NCBI RefSeq assembly: GCF_021044585.1
Contig: NZ_CP087998.1
Coordinates: 1,550,001-1,614,000 of the forward strand
Source of the DNA: Sulfurimonas sp. HSL-3221
Lineage (GTDB): Bacteria; Campylobacterota; Campylobacteria; Campylobacterales; Sulfurimonadaceae
Length of the DNA stretch: 64,000 nucleotides
Direction: 5' to 3'
Shown in pieces: positions 54,846-61,703 of the stretch. The notes under the pieces are model-generated. The model searched no databases, was not told the DNA's origin, and was given only the letters and a program-made list of their open reading frames with translations. Within the stretch, counting starts at the first letter, position 1; the number at the start of each line of letters is the position of its first letter. The position numbers were made by a program, and so were the translations under genes.

Positions 54846-56152
54846 TTAGAGGTTGAACCCGCGCTCGCCGTGAACGGATTCGTCCAGACCCATTGTCTCT
54901 GTCTCTTCATCAACGCGTGCACCGCCGGTGATCGCAGAGGAGATCAGGTAGACAATGACCGTACCGACCAGGGTCCACAGACCGACGATCAGGACAGACT
55001 CGAACTGCACAAAGAGCTGACCCATACGATCGCCGCTTGCTTTGAGCGGACCGTCCCAGAGGAGGTCCTGATCGTTCAGCGCGAAGATACCCGTTGCGAT
55101 CGCACCCCACAGACCTGCGAGGAAGTGGATACCGAAAGCATCGAGGCTGTCGTCGTAGCCCAGTTTCTTTTTCAGGATAGCCACACCGAAGAAGCCGATG
55201 AGCGCACCGACGATACCGACGATGAAGGCACCGCCGACGCCGACGAAGCCGGCTGCCGGAGTGATCGCAACGAGACCGGCAACGATACCGGAAGCGACAC
55301 CGAGCAGGGTCGGTTTCTTGAACATGAACCATTCAATCAGCATCCAGGTGACACCGGCAGCCGCCGTAGCGATTGTCGTTGTCAGAACCGCCAGGCCTGC
55401 AACAGCGTTCGCACCGAATGCGGAACCGCCGTTGAAGCCGTACCAGCCGAACCAGAGGATCGCCGCACCGGCAGCGGTGAGGATGATGCTCGCCGGTTTC
55501 ATGGCTGTCTTAGGATAACCTGCACGCTTGCCGAGCATGACTGCCAGGACCAGACCGGCCAGACCGCCGTTCATGTGGACAACCGTACCGCCGGCGAAGT
55601 CAAGGGCACCTTCATCGAAGAGGTAGGCACCGTCGCCGCCCCATACCATGTGGGTGATCGGTGCGTAAACCACCAGGCCCCACAGGACAACGAAGAGCAT
55701 CCATGTTGAGAACTTCATACGCTCGATCGCGGAACCGGAGGCGAGATGGCAACGGTGATCGCTGCAAACGTACCCTGGAACGCGATGAAGACGAAGGTCG
55801 GGTAGCTGCCGGAAAGGTCAGACCAGTTGATACCGGAGAGGAAGACGTTGCCGAAGCCGCCGAACACGTTCTGCAGTGCCGCGCTCTCGTTCGCGCCGAA
55901 GGCGATGGAGTAGCCTGCAATGACCCAGACCACAAACGCTACCACGAAGGCACCCATTACCATTGCATAAGTATTGAGTACATTCTTTGTACGCGTCATC
56001 CCGGCGTAAAAGAGTGCCAGACCTGCCGGCGTCATCAGCAGTACGAACGCTGTTGACACCATCATCCAGGCCGTATCACCTGTATCGAGCGTATCCTCTG
56101 CCAGCGCCAGCGTCGGCAGAAGCATCATCATGGACAAAAGCCACTTCTTCAT
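54846..56152 (-). pseudogene. amt: Ammonium transporter, interrupted by a frameshift
   Basis: The message reads as two frames. Upstream (56152-55715) it has a signal-like first helix and MMVSTAFVLLMTPAGLALFYAG up to FAAITVAI. The rest (55718-54846) begins KFSTWMLFVVLWGLVVYAPI and holds the pore region (HMNGG, the conserved His pair, GYPKTAMKP). Joined at the shift, the protein runs ITVAIASGSAIERMKFSTW, as in intact Amt proteins. The cause is two extra bases in GCGAGATGG at 55741-55749 (GA doubled; GCGATGG expected). With GlnK intact beside it, either the copy is dead or the sequence has an error. Confidence 0.85.
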
Positions 56153-57005: not shown

Positions 57006-57401
57006 TCAACCCGCCTCGTTCAGCTCTTCGGGCTCTTCCTCGACCAGTCTGCCGACACCGCGGTCTTCGACCGGGATGTCCTCGCGGAATTTCTTTTTGC
57101 GGAAGGACGGTGTTTTGAGCTTGCCGTTCTTTTCGCCGAGTTTGTAGATCTCTTCGTTGAGGAAATGCTCTTCGAATTCCGGGGTAAACGGCATGTCCCA
57201 AGTGATCGTACCGATGCTCGGACAGATCGCGGCGCACTGCGGATCGTCGTAGATACCGACGCACTCGACACACTTTTCAGGCTGAACGTAGTAGCGCTTT
57301 TCGCCGGTAGGGTTGTCCGAATCGTCTACGATAGCGTTGACCGGGCAGACTTGCAAACAGGCGTCGCAGGTGATACATTTGTCATCAATAATTACAGCCA
57401 T
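57006..57401 (-). CDS. Nif-associated ferredoxin (2[4Fe-4S])
   Basis: A 131-residue ferredoxin. The first cluster ligands are Cys9, 12, 15 and 19 (DKCITCDACLQVCPV). The second set is EKCVECVGIYDDPQCAAICPS, spaced CxxC-x8-CxxxC as in nif ferredoxins. The C-terminal tail is basic and acidic (KTPSFRKKKFREDI). It probably carries electrons to NifH or to a cofactor enzyme such as NifB. A close paralogue lies at 58036. Confidence 0.9.
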   Translation of the reverse strand: MAVIIDDKCITCDACLQVCPVNAIVDDSDNPTGEKRYYVQPEKCVECVGIYDDPQCAAICPSIGTITWDMPFTPEFEEHFLNEEIYKLGEKNGKLKTPSFRKKKFREDIPVEDRGVGRLVEEEPEELNEAG

Positions 57402-57481
57402 AATTTATCCTTTAAGGTTTATTGTGGATTTGATCCTTGTGAAACCTCCGTCATCCCGGGGGTTTTAGAAGAAGCAAAGCC

Positions 57482-57859
57482 TCAGGCGCTGCGCTGAGCA
57501 CCTTTGTGGAAAATGCGCAGCAGCCACAGGGGCGGCTGCGTATTCAGCATCTCGTGGATCTGGTCGATCGCGCCCTGAAGCGCTTCACCCTCCTTGACCT
57601 GCACGGGGTGAATCCCCGCAGCCTGGACCATCTTGGATGCCTTCGGACCGATCTGGGTGCAGTACAGGATGTCCGCCTCTTCGATCGTACCGATCTTGTA
57701 GTTGAGTTTCGCCACTTCTTCCTCGGGCTCGTCCGAGCTTTCAATAACTTTGAGCAGCGTCGCGCTCTCCTTATCGACCTCGTACAGATGGAAGGTTTTG
57801 GACCAGCCGAAGTGCTGATCGATCTTTTCGCCCGTGGATGAAGCAAATGCGATTCTCAT
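57482..57859 (-). CDS. nifX: NifX
   Basis: A 125-residue NifX-type protein (MRIAFASSTGEKIDQHFGWS, the HFG motif of the dinitrogenase cofactor family; KVIESSDEPEEEVAKLNYKI; ILYCTQIGPKASKM). It binds the cofactor precursor during assembly. It is separated from the ferredoxin at 58036 by 176 bases with two hairpins, and from the next ferredoxin by 80. Confidence 0.85.
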   Translation of the reverse strand: MRIAFASSTGEKIDQHFGWSKTFHLYEVDKESATLLKVIESSDEPEEEVAKLNYKIGTIEEADILYCTQIGPKASKMVQAAGIHPVQVKEGEALQGAIDQIHEMLNTQPPLWLLRIFHKGAQRSA

Positions 57860-57916
57860 GATTTCTACCTTTTATGTATGATGCGAGAGGAAGCTATCCG
57901 CTTCACCGTAAAGTGC

Positions 57917-58003
57917 CTTTCATGTGTCAAACACCCTCTCCCGCCGAAAAGGTGCTTGACACATGAAAGCTGAGACAGACCAAGGTTCACTCTAAGGTGA
58001 ACC
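57917..58003 (-). repeat. Two tandem hairpins between nif genes
   Basis: CTTTCATGTGTCAA (57917-57930) pairs perfectly with TTGACACATGAAAG (57956-57969), with a further CACC/GGTG inner stem. GGTTCAC (57984-57990) pairs with GTGAACC (57997-58003). They lie between ferredoxin and nifX and may be processing or stabilising signals, or a binding site. Confidence 0.55.
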
Positions 58004-58035
58004 CGGTGTTAACGTCGTGTTTTGGACGCTACGAA

Positions 58036-58428
58036 TTAGAACGAGTCAGAGACGTTGGCGTGGCCTTCGCGCACGTCCATACCGATCTCATCCATGAACT
58101 TCTGCTCTTTGACTGACGGAAGCATCAGACCTTTCTTTTTGTGTTCACGGATCTTGTAGGTACCGTCTTCATTCCCTTTGGAGTAGTACTCTTCGAAATC
58201 AACGGTAAAAGGCATATCCCATACGATAGAACCTTCGGTCGGGCACGCTTCCGCACAACGCGGCGCATCCGCATGACCGACACACTCAACACACGTCTCC
58301 GGCTTCACATAGAAGCGCTCATCGTCGTAGGGGTTCTTTTCGTCACCGTTGCTCAAAATTGCTGCGACCGGGCATTCCGGTGCACAAGCGTCACAGTTGA
58401 TGCACTCATCCGTAATCATTACTGCCAT
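58036..58428 (-). CDS. Nif-associated ferredoxin (2[4Fe-4S]), paralogue
   Basis: A 130-residue ferredoxin, paralogous to 57006-57401. Cluster 1: DECINCDACAPECPV. Cluster 2: ETCVECVGHADAPRCAEACP. It has the same Pro-Phe and Trp-Asp-Met after cluster 2 (IVWDMPFTVDFEEYY). Its own sigma-54 promoter (58462-58477) lies inside the end of the TOBE gene. The two ferredoxins may deliver electrons at different potentials. Confidence 0.9.
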   Translation of the reverse strand: MAVMITDECINCDACAPECPVAAILSNGDEKNPYDDERFYVKPETCVECVGHADAPRCAEACPTEGSIVWDMPFTVDFEEYYSKGNEDGTYKIREHKKKGLMLPSVKEQKFMDEIGMDVREGHANVSDSF

Positions 58429-58455: not shown

Positions 58456-58905
58456 TTATGGTGCAACTTTCGTTCCTGCACGCTTCTTGAAGCTCTCGAC
58501 CGTCATCGGCACCACATCGGGTTCCAGGTGGATATCGACACCGCGCAGCAGCATTGTCGCCTCGCAGCCGACTTCGAGCTCCAGCTCATGACAAGCCTTC
58601 TCCGTGATCAGCGATACAACCGTGCCGAGATCGCTTTCGAAGGTAAGTTCGCAAAGCGAATCCTTGCTGCGGATCTTTTTCAATGTTCCGGGAATGCGGT
58701 TTTCAATGGAGACCTTGCCGGGGCACTCTTTGCTGACGCAGACCGAAGCTTCCTGGAAGGAGAAGAGAACCTTGTCCCCCACCCCCGCCCAGACCGGGGT
58801 CTTTGTTTTGATGAGACGGATCTGGGTCTCATTGCATTTGAGCGTGATGTACGTAACGATGTCCGTGCGTTCGATATCGGTAACGACTGCGGCTATCTTG
58901 TTCAT
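58456..58905 (-). CDS. Molybdate-binding di-TOBE (Mop-like) protein
   Basis: A 149-residue protein containing two TOBE/Mop repeats (residues 5-70 and 75-145, KVLFSFQEASVCVSKE, GCEATMLLRGVDIHLEP). This fits the ModG-type molybdate binder, without a helix-turn-helix, so it is probably a storage or buffer protein and not ModE. It would supply molybdenum for the FeMo-cofactor. Its start is ten bases after the HicB-Sel1-NifU gene. Confidence 0.75.
   Translation of the reverse strand: MNKIAAVVTDIERTDIVTYITLKCNETQIRLIKTKTPVWAGVGDKVLFSFQEASVCVSKECPGKVSIENRIPGTLKKIRSKDSLCELTFESDLGTVVSLITEKACHELELEVGCEATMLLRGVDIHLEPDVVPMTVESFKKRAGTKVAP
58462..58477 (-). promoter_or_regulatory. Sigma-54 promoter of the ferredoxin gene
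   Basis: Minus-strand AGGAACGAAAGTTGCA keeps GG and GC in phase. Transcription would start near 58450, 22 bases before the ATG at 58428. It overlaps the last codons of the TOBE gene. Confidence 0.7.
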
Positions 58906-58915
58906 CCCGCGCTCC

Positions 58916-59815
58916 CTACATCAGGTAAAGGACGACATTTTTGTCGATCAGCTCCTCGAAAGCGTCGAGCAGCATATCCGCCGTCGAGGTTGAACCGAGG
59001 TGACAGCCTGAGCAAGCGCCCAGGTAGTTCAACCAGATCTGCGGCGTCTCCCCCGGCACGTAGTTGAGCAGTTCGATCCCGCCGCTGTCGGCTTCGAGTG
59101 TCGGGCGGATCTTCTGGTCGATGACCTGCATGACCAGCGTAATCTGTTTTTCCACCGGCAGACTGCGGAACGGCTTGTTCAGCACCGTCGCCAGCTCCTT
59201 GTTGCTGACGTAGGTGACCACCTCCTGCGCCCGCACATTGTTATTGTGCGCGGCGGTAATCAGGTAGCGCATCGCTTCGGCCTTCTCCCCTTTTTCTTTG
59301 AGGAGCATGCCCGCTTTGAACTGGGCGTCGACATGCCCGATATCGGCTGCCTGCTTGAAATAGGTAAGCGCATCCTTCTCATTGGGCGTACCGTCGAGCC
59401 CTTTTTCGAAGATCTGCGCCAGGCTCATCATCGCATGCATGCTGCCCTGTTCGGCCGCCTTTGCAAACCACGCTTTGGCCGCTTCGATGTCGCGTCCGCA
59501 CCCTTTGCCCTGCATCGCCATGACGCCCAGGTTCACCATCGCATTGGCATCCGCTTTTGACGCCGAATCGACAAAGAGGTCATACGCCTCTTTATACTGT
59601 TTCGCCTCGTAGGCACTGACTCCTGCTTCGAATGTCGTCATTTTCTGCTCCTCCTGACTTTGAAAATAGGCTTCGAGCCGTTCATACGCATCTTCTTCGG
59701 CCTCCTCGAAGGTATCGCCGATTCCTTTGATCTCCGGGAACTCGACGAACTGGGCGACGCAGCCGTCCCCCTCCTCGTTGGAAAAACCGAAATAATCAAG
59801 TGCATACTTTTTCAT
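58916..59815 (-). CDS. HicB-like / Sel1 / NifU C-terminal fusion protein
   Basis: A 299-residue protein from the ATG at 59815. Residues 1-55 look like a HicB/UPF0150 fold (DYFGFSNEEGDGCVAQFVEF, EEAEEDAYERLEAY). Residues 60-200 hold Sel1-type repeats (AMVNLGVMAMQGKG, AKAWFAKAAEQGSM, DALTYFKQAADIGH). Residues 215-299 are a NifU C-terminal domain with GACSGCHLGSTSTADML (Cys268, Cys271), which binds an Fe-S cluster for transfer. The combination is unusual. A sigma-54 promoter precedes it. It may be a scaffold specialised for nitrogenase clusters. Confidence 0.8.
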   Translation of the reverse strand: MKKYALDYFGFSNEEGDGCVAQFVEFPEIKGIGDTFEEAEEDAYERLEAYFQSQEEQKMTTFEAGVSAYEAKQYKEAYDLFVDSASKADANAMVNLGVMAMQGKGCGRDIEAAKAWFAKAAEQGSMHAMMSLAQIFEKGLDGTPNEKDALTYFKQAADIGHVDAQFKAGMLLKEKGEKAEAMRYLITAAHNNNVRAQEVVTYVSNKELATVLNKPFRSLPVEKQITLVMQVIDQKIRPTLEADSGGIELLNYVPGETPQIWLNYLGACSGCHLGSTSTADMLLDAFEELIDKNVVLYLM

Positions 59816-59826
59816 AGCCAGCCTTA

Positions 59827-59842
59827 TGCAAAGAACGTTCCA
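59827..59842 (-). promoter_or_regulatory. Sigma-54 promoter of the HicB-Sel1-NifU gene
   Basis: Minus-strand TGGAACGTTCTTTGCA, a near-perfect match. Transcription would start about 59815, so the leader is only a few bases long or the -12 box lies very close to the start codon. Confidence 0.75.
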
Positions 59843-59848
59843 GAAGCT

Positions 59849-59864
59849 TGGAACATTTTTTGCA
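59849..59864 (+). promoter_or_regulatory. Sigma-54 promoter of the NifX-like gene at 59895
   Basis: TGGAACATTTTTTGCA on the plus strand; transcription would start near 59876, 19 bases before the ATG. It faces away from the site at 59827, with only six bases between them. Confidence 0.75.
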
Positions 59865-59894: not shown

Positions 59895-60290
59895 ATGATC
59901 GCTATACCGGTGGACAAGGCGTCAATGGATGCCACGTCATCGAAACTTTTCGGAAATGTTCAGGCATTCGCCCTTTATAATAATGATGAAAAGGCATTCC
60001 GTTTCATTCCGAACGACGGCCAAGGGGACGGTGTCAAAACCGCCAAACTGCTTGCCGATCACTCCGTAACCTCCGTCGTCTACTCTTTCATGGGTAACGG
60101 CCCCTACGGCGTCCTGGAAGCGGAAGGCATCGGTGTTTACTACCTGGGGAAAGAGCCGCTGGCGCTCTCAACCATCGTCGAAGGGCTGGCAACGGAAAAC
60201 TTCGTCAAGGTTATCTCTGAAAACGCGCAGACTTACCTCGATCCGGGCACAGCGTCGGGAGAGTGCGGATGTGGATGCAGCCATGACTGA
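59895..60290 (+). CDS. NifX-like protein with Cys-rich tail
   Basis: A 131-residue member of the dinitrogenase iron-molybdenum-cofactor family (MIAIPVDKASMDATSSKLFG, VVYSFMGNGPYGVLEAEGIG). It ends ECGCGCSHD, a likely metal site absent from the other NifX proteins here. AAGGAGGCGAC precedes the ATG at 59895. It is the first gene of a four-gene plus-strand group under a sigma-54 promoter. Confidence 0.75.
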   Translation: MIAIPVDKASMDATSSKLFGNVQAFALYNNDEKAFRFIPNDGQGDGVKTAKLLADHSVTSVVYSFMGNGPYGVLEAEGIGVYYLGKEPLALSTIVEGLATENFVKVISENAQTYLDPGTASGECGCGCSHD

Positions 60291-60531: not shown

Positions 60532-61176
60532 ATGCCGGAGTACAGCAAGGCCAGTAAGGCCCGCGTGCCTGATGAGACCTCTGAATACAGTGAAAAAGGG
60601 CGGCTGAGGGCCGCGGGAGCGCAGATCGACCGCTACCGGATCATCCTGGACAAAGATAACTTCCAACCCGAAGAGCCCCATTGGCGGCGTATCAGCAAGA
60701 ACACCGTCAGTCTTTTCCAGGTCCTCATCGACCAGAACCTTCACGAGCTTGTCATGGTGCTGGAGCACTACCCCCGCTATATCGAGTGGGTCTGTGAACA
60801 CTTCCGCTACGCCTACAGTTACAGCGAGAACGAAGCGAGCATCGACGCCGCTTCCCGGCTCCTGGAGCTGGGCGAGCCCTTTTTCACGAAGCAGTTTGTC
60901 CGCAACCTCGTACGCAAACTCCCGCGCCTCGATGCCATGGAGCTCGAAGCGCTCAAAACGTTTGCCGAAATGGTATCGGCACAGCACGGACAGTGGCACC
61001 CCATCGTTACGAACCACTACTGCGACGCCATCGGAGAGAGCGTCGATTCCCGTAAACTGCATCCGCTGCAGCGCCTGGCCATCACCGGCAAGATCGCGAA
61101 CATTGCGCGGATCGAAACCTTCGAGTACGATGCCGAAGACCGCGACGCCGTCCTCGATATCCCCTACATGAATTGA
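60532..61176 (+). CDS. Unknown protein of the nif operon
   Basis: A 214-residue soluble, mainly helical protein (MPEYSKASKARVPDETSEYS..., WRRISKNTVSLFQVLIDQNL, EALKTFAEMVSAQHGQWHPI). It follows the preceding gene by three bases. I cannot assign a family; it may be a scaffold or regulatory factor made with the NifX-like protein. Confidence 0.6.
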   Translation: MPEYSKASKARVPDETSEYSEKGRLRAAGAQIDRYRIILDKDNFQPEEPHWRRISKNTVSLFQVLIDQNLHELVMVLEHYPRYIEWVCEHFRYAYSYSENEASIDAASRLLELGEPFFTKQFVRNLVRKLPRLDAMELEALKTFAEMVSAQHGQWHPIVTNHYCDAIGESVDSRKLHPLQRLAITGKIANIARIETFEYDAEDRDAVLDIPYMN

Positions 61177-61196
61177 ATTGAACAGAAAGGTTAACC

Positions 61197-61703
61197 ATGG
61201 ATAAAGAAACCATCAAAGAAGAACTTCTCAAACACGCACGCAACGCTTTTGAAACCGCTTCCACCCTGCGAGAGAACGAGCGCATCGAAGTCTACCTGCA
61301 CGACGGCATTGCCAAGACCTCCGATGTCCTCGATGACAGTGATGAGATCCTCTACGGCGACAACCGGGTTCTGTGCTACCAGGTCCAGGGGTACGACTAC
61401 CTGGAGGGCGAGATCAAAACCTGGATCGACTACGCCCGTATCATCCCGCAGCCGACAGACGACGACACACCGCTGCCCGAACCCACCGACATCGAAAAAT
61501 CAATCCGTGAACTCATTACCGATCTGGCAAAATCCAAAGGGGTGAGCCCAGACGACATCAGCTCCTTCGAGGTCTTCGCCAACCTGCCGATGGACCTGCT
61601 GGGTACAATCGAACAGCAGATCATCGAGTACTGGTGGAGCGCGGAAGAGGAAGAGAACGGCAAGAAACTCGCCCTGGCCCAGATCGAAGAGGCCCTGGCC
61701 TAA
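61197..61703 (+). CDS. Unknown acidic protein of the nif operon
   Basis: A 168-residue acidic protein (MDKETIKEELLKHARNAFET, EILYGDNRVLCYQVQGYDYL, PTDIEKSIRELITDLAKSKG). No motif is recognised. It ends the plus-strand group (59895-61703), twenty bases after the 214-residue gene. A possible Asp/Glu metal site is speculative. Confidence 0.6.
   Translation: MDKETIKEELLKHARNAFETASTLRENERIEVYLHDGIAKTSDVLDDSDEILYGDNRVLCYQVQGYDYLEGEIKTWIDYARIIPQPTDDDTPLPEPTDIEKSIRELITDLAKSKGVSPDDISSFEVFANLPMDLLGTIEQQIIEYWWSAEEEENGKKLALAQIEEALA

Follow-up and report, generated by a model that had tools for sequence, protein, structure and literature searches.

What does a protein do in a nitrogen-fixation locus when it combines a HicB-like N-terminus, a run of Sel1 repeats and the C-terminal cluster-transfer domain of NifU? 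The gene for such a protein (299 amino acids, read from an ATG) lies on the minus strand at 58916..59815 of the window, by which we mean the whole 64,000-nucleotide stretch of the Sulfurimonas sp. HSL-3221 genome that was analysed, and which carries nifK, nifD, nifH, nifV, nifB and nifX. The original prediction took the protein to be an unusual Fe-S scaffold belonging to the nif regulon and noted the absence of a separate nifU from the window.

Domain structure of the protein

The Sel1 repeats and the NifU C-terminal domain both score above their Pfam cut-offs, as predicted. PF08238 (Sel1) matches two stretches of the protein with 54.9 bits (cut-off 30.7), and PF01106 (NifU) matches residues 228-279 with 38.2 bits (cut-off 27), or 41.2 bits in the genome-wide profile search. 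The Sel1 region covers about residues 61-191 (59243..59635, minus strand) and forms helical hairpins, judging from the PF08238 match, the helices of the AlphaFold2 model and the Sel1 structures that are its top matches. A fold search with the full-length protein found LceB (8sxq) at Z 20.4; among the matches listed, full-length searches gave only Sel1/TPR-type structures and no HicB or NifU folds, an absence to be expected if the solenoid takes up all the top places. A phmmer search of the C-terminal 78 residues against PDB sequences returned nothing at E ≤ 0.1.

The Nfu-type NifU domain occupies residues 228-299 (58919..59134, minus strand) and contains a CSGC motif (59003..59014, minus strand) with the proposed cluster ligands Cys268 and Cys271, which sit exactly at the positions originally claimed and are invariant in 15/15 aligned members; the domain and a CxGC motif are found in all 64 distinct homologues. 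The top NCBIfam match of the protein is TIGR02000, at 29.8 bits over profile positions 186-273, which likens the NifU part to the C-terminal end of true NifU. Neither PF01592, the IscU-like N-terminal scaffold domain, nor the central [2Fe-2S] ferredoxin-like domain is among the Pfam matches of the protein at E ≤ 1, and its anatomy is therefore that of a carrier and not of the Fe-S scaffold that had been proposed.

The N-terminal domain (residues 1-58; 59642..59815, minus strand) resembles HicB weakly by sequence and well by structure. Pfam gave no HicB match for the single 299-residue sequence, and only two of 21 N-terminal domains from relatives touch PF15919, the best at E 0.019. When a profile of these 21 domains was compared with the PDB, HicB antitoxins ranked first (6hpb and 6u0i, E 7e-4), and the AlphaFold2 model of residues 1-58 (pLDDT 92), which has a beta-beta-beta-alpha order, found the N-terminal domain of a Burkholderia HicB (6g1c) as its top structural match, with Z 7.2 and an rmsd of 1.1 Å over 54 residues. 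That Z value is in the middling range of the tool, and double-stranded RNA-binding domains score 6.0-6.6 against the same model; Foldseek with the 58-residue model returned nothing at E ≤ 0.001 and placed HicB entries, at E of about 0.8-1.4, among double-stranded RNA-binding domains. Because Z values below 8 are common and the RNA-binding domains follow closely, we call the domain HicB-like, not HicB, and in that form the predicted N-terminus holds. Differences between relatives in this region are mostly synonymous, which argues that it is translated.

The HicB-like fold and its resemblance to double-stranded RNA-binding domains would suit a regulator or antitoxin-like protein in which the NifU domain serves as a cluster sensor. 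We regard this as improbable, since the C-terminal DNA-binding domain of HicB is absent (the residues after 58 are Sel1 and NifU), the window genome has no match to HicA (PF07927) in a search that was positive in 7/14 controls, and many orthologues lack the HicB domain, whereas none lacks the NifU domain. Even close relatives differ in whether they have the HicB domain. The design may rightly be called unusual for the family as a whole, but its HicB part is not essential. The Sel1 repeats also vary, shrinking to almost none in some Sulfurimonas-like members, and the NifU domain is constant.

Distribution, gene neighbourhood and other NifU proteins

Among 200 relatives, the family is present in 59 (counted at E below 1e-30, the next match being at 1e-16), and 59/59 of these also have a nifD-type match, compared with 0/123 nifD-negative relatives that carry the family (Fisher p 5e-35, relatedness not corrected). 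In this count, nifD-type matches under the curated cut-off were taken as nif-positive, and partial genes in incomplete genomes were included. Both the link to nitrogen fixation and the absence of the fusion from non-diazotrophs are thus borne out. Diazotrophy in the phylum does not depend on the family, since 18 of the 77 genomes with a nifD-type match are without it, including the near-complete G139, G193 and G151. A scan of named organisms with one peptide pattern gave 40 loci, all titled as Campylobacterota; relatives may exist elsewhere. Thirty-four plasmid records match, none over 80% of the query, with the repeat region alone represented among the five matches listed. The open-licence PMC literature holds no paper that joins Sel1, NifU and Campylobacterota and none on HicB, sigma-54 and nitrogen fixation together; HicB and NifU co-occur in two papers on prophages, and Sel1 and NifU in one on a magnetotactic genome. 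The HicB-Sel1-NifU protein is not described in the passages of PMC7341956 that were searched. We conclude that this is a real and apparently undescribed nif-linked family of Campylobacterota, apparently an Nfu-type carrier variant in which the domains are combined in a new way.

The gene has a conserved set of neighbours. Divergent from it is a Nitro_FeMo-Co (NifX/NafY-like) gene (59895..60290, plus strand; PF02579, 38.9 bits), and downstream lie genes for a TOBE/Mop protein of the molybdate-binding type (58456..58905, minus strand; PF03459, 35.4 bits), a 2[4Fe-4S] ferredoxin (58036..58428, minus strand; PF12838), NifX (57482..57859, minus strand; TIGR02663, E 2e-29, 102.5 bits, just under the cut-off of 112) and a second 2[4Fe-4S] ferredoxin (57006..57401, minus strand; PF12838). 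Among the loci listed, the nifX, ferredoxin, Mop and NafY-like genes recur beside the family gene across genera, and nifX, the most constant partner, nearly always adjoins it; in a distant lineage of the Arcobacter/Sulfurovum type, nifX follows the family gene directly. The adjoining Mop-domain and NifX/NafY-like genes would be in keeping with a protein that replaces NifQ by supplying molybdenum or a Mo-Fe-S unit for the assembly of FeMo-cofactor, a role that we rejected as very unlikely because NifQ-family matches occur in 20/20 genomes tested, that of the window included.

Three further features of the neighbourhood were observed. The two ferredoxins that flank nifX (57006-58428, minus strand) are diverged from each other, and loci L043 and L044 have three in a row. 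At 60532-61703 (plus strand), two proteins of 214 and 168 amino acids with no Pfam or NCBIfam match recur near nif genes in many Sulfurimonadaceae loci and are candidates for undescribed nif-associated proteins. The ammonium transporter gene amtB (54846-56152, minus strand) is split into two overlapping frames of 145 and 290 amino acids; it is one open frame in three relatives of the same genus (L098, L099 and L100), so that either the window genome has a frameshift or its assembly is in error here.

Does the protein stand in for NifU? The window genome (2.52 Mb, one contig) has NifU domains at four places in a genome-wide PF01106 search: a 105-residue Nfu, two full-length NifU frames and the HicB-Sel1-NifU gene. 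One full-length frame (L051:10383-11354) adjoins rpoN, about 5 kb from nifN and about 61 kb to the left of the window, and the other (L054:3727-4701) adjoins nifS. Both align with TIGR02000 over the length of the profile and score 214 and 225 bits, short of the 273 set as its equivalog cut-off. A PF01592 search of the genome found matches at three places, none of them the HicB-Sel1-NifU gene. The statement that the window holds no separate nifU is therefore true of the window, by genome-wide searches for NifU_N and NifU, but the genome has two elsewhere, and with two full-length NifU proteins and one Nfu present the protein is no stand-in for a missing nifU. A scaffold that builds the nitrogenase clusters in the place of NifU, suggested by the lack of nifU inside the window and by a NifU-domain gene in a nif context, is accordingly most unlikely, given the full-length proteins encoded beside rpoN and nifS and the lack of PF01592 and central [2Fe-2S] domains from the matches of the protein itself. 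The two full-length proteins point to an extra nif-linked carrier and not to a replacement scaffold. By frame size, six of ten family-positive genomes tested have two full-size NifU frames and four (G035, G161, G184 and G186) have one, so that in these four no NifU-domain frame exists besides the family gene, a single NifU and a single Nfu.

Promoters and a proposed internal start

The predicted promoter of the gene is present as a motif. A sigma-54-type motif, TGGAACGTTCTTTGCA, lies upstream of it at 59827..59842 (minus strand), and a divergent one, TGGAACATTTTTTGCA, lies before the NifX/NafY-like gene at 59849..59864 (plus strand). The pattern TGGAAC-N5-TTGCA occurs three times in the window against 0.13 expected, and two of the three occurrences are this divergent pair (59827-59864). 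The motif is conserved in relatives: a looser form, [AG]GAA[CT]-N6-TGC, stands upstream of all 20 Sulfurimonadaceae HicB-bearing genes for which upstream sequence was available (0.000-0.027 expected per gene). It is missing upstream of most genes of the distant lineage, and those genes directly follow another gene. The promoter tallies of 22/33 and 22/33 are slightly off, since the regular expression labelled L082 and L029 as HicB-less and both carry the HicB domain. Membership of the nif regulon, which had been claimed outright, we only infer; the sigma-54-type motif speaks for it, but no exact copy of the NifA upstream site (TGT-N10-ACA) was found at up to 5 kb from the promoter, and the eight matches in total compare with 7.57 expected by chance.

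Two variants of the promoter region were seen among relatives. In loci L030 and L032, some 100 bases that their relatives lack separate the sigma-54-type site from the start, placing the site 125-128 nt away; these bases look like a small inserted element. In L014, L015, L018, L033 and others, the divergent promoters share a palindrome, GTTCTAGAAC, with AG for GG at -24, through which the two divergent genes would share one -24 element.

In the genus of the window, the C at -12 is located 12 nt before the ATG (5/5). The usual sigma-54 spacing would place the RNA start at the ATG, and the mRNA for the long form would then have almost no leader. A second translation start is proposed at Met59 (59639..59641, minus strand), at the junction of the HicB domain with the repeats, with a Shine-Dalgarno-like sequence, AGGAGGAG at its core, just upstream (59647..59657, minus strand). 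The junction Met is present in 34/35 HicB-bearing homologues (it is missing in L088, of the distant lineage). AGGAG precedes it in 21/21 Sulfurimonadaceae HicB-bearing genes versus 2/228 other internal Met codons; divided by lineage, the counts are 7/7 and 14/14 at the junction versus 1/78 and 1/150 elsewhere, and in the distant lineage they are 3/13 versus 0/114. In 12 Sulfuricurvum-like genes, the residue at the site varies between Glu, Gln and Lys and the bases stay NAG-GAG. HicB-less orthologues have the promoter in common with HicB-bearing genes and begin at the Met aligned with the junction; L075, which is HicB-less, reads aggagaagggt before its start Met, the same as HicB-bearing L031. 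What distinguishes the two kinds of gene is a clean block of about 150 bp.

These patterns, read from sequence, make dual initiation likely: translation from Met1 would give a long form, and translation from Met59 a short one that lacks the HicB domain. They also suit a relic, in which a HicB cassette was placed ahead of a pre-existing start and the long form is the sole product. Both kinds of gene share the promoter and the site that precedes the junction ATG, across the clean block difference, and resampling of synonymous codons at the internal site does not reach significance for individual genes (p 0.07-0.14 in Sulfuricurvum-like genes, about 0.16-0.56 in the genus of the window and 0.34-0.90 in the distant lineage). 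The linker is rich in Glu and Lys and AG-rich anyway, which accounts for the lack of significance, and the amino-acid sequence alone explains part of the AGGAG conservation; the synonymous-codon tests are only suggestive for the internal start. A relic should decay, however, and AGGAG has been retained in 21/21 genes of several genera, through the Glu/Gln/Lys changes. The distant lineage is HicB-bearing as well, which on a weakly supported tree argues for an old domain lost repeatedly. That tree came from a quick search and has many unsupported forks; three label changes are forced by strong branches, and its count of ten is slightly off because L082 was labelled HicB-less though it bears the domain. 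We consider the relic a tenable but less than even prospect.

The fuller account built on dual initiation is one that we hold tentatively, at a little short of an even chance. One nif gene would yield two cluster carriers from one frame, with and without the HicB-like module, in a ratio that could be set by the nearly leaderless long start and the strong internal ribosome-binding site; the two forms could adapt one carrier to two clients or form mixed dimers, and repeated losses of the domain would have come about through a return to the internal start.

Proposed function and comparison with known systems

We favour, with fair confidence, a nitrogenase-dedicated carrier of [4Fe-4S] clusters, of the Nfu type and with a Sel1 arm for docking, which in Sulfurimonadaceae probably exists in long and short forms. 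With a conventional scaffold present and only the C-terminal domain of NifU found here, the protein fits a cluster carrier, a role that needs no missing scaffold. We infer cluster binding, the donor, the client or partners and the production of both forms as follows. The C-terminal domain would hold a [4Fe-4S] cluster that bridges two chains through Cys268 and Cys271, and its donor would be one or other of the full-length NifU proteins. Docking on a client of FeMo-cofactor assembly would fall to the Sel1 solenoid. This client would be the product of a neighbouring gene, and NifX, the ferredoxins, the Mop protein and the NafY-like protein are the first candidates because their genes adjoin that of the carrier. 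The HicB-like domain may be an optional extra module for docking or dimerisation, and in Sulfurimonadaceae the same mRNA would give both the Met1 and the Met59 products.

The delivery of [4Fe-4S] units to the individual nitrogenase assembly proteins, on which engineered nitrogenase depends, is understood only in part. A nif-linked carrier that brings its own docking solenoid and is encoded beside nifX would suggest a delivery route open to testing in Campylobacterota, and would be a component to try out in engineered nif systems. The conserved internal start, absent from the original prediction, is the most interesting part, as it offers a simple picture of how bacterial domain fusions come and go.

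The protein shares with NifU (TIGR02000) a C-terminal NifU domain with a motif of the YLGACSGC type, and differs from it in having Sel1 repeats and a HicB-like domain in place of PF01592 and central [2Fe-2S] matches. Like the Nfu/NfuA carriers (TIGR03341, which it matches with 13.6 bits only), it has a CxxC NifU domain preceded by an N-terminal targeting part, and it would act as they do; in NfuA this part is a degenerate A-type domain, whereas here it is a Sel1 solenoid with or without the HicB-like domain. The N-terminal domains of HicB antitoxins (6g1c, 6hpb and TTHA0281, 2dsy) have the same beta-beta-beta-alpha fold and a GDTxEEAxxDA-type stretch, but the protein here has no DNA-binding tail and no HicA in its genome and is fused to a repeat solenoid. 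CheA is made in long and short forms, two products from one frame through an internal ribosome-binding site, and the scheme proposed here is alike, although in this case the in-frame start is predicted from sequence only. Sel1 helical hairpins are also found in HcpC, LceB and COA7, and COA7 (7mqz), a cytochrome oxidase assembly factor, would be a case of similar docking use; unlike all three, the protein described here carries a C-terminal NifU cluster-transfer domain.
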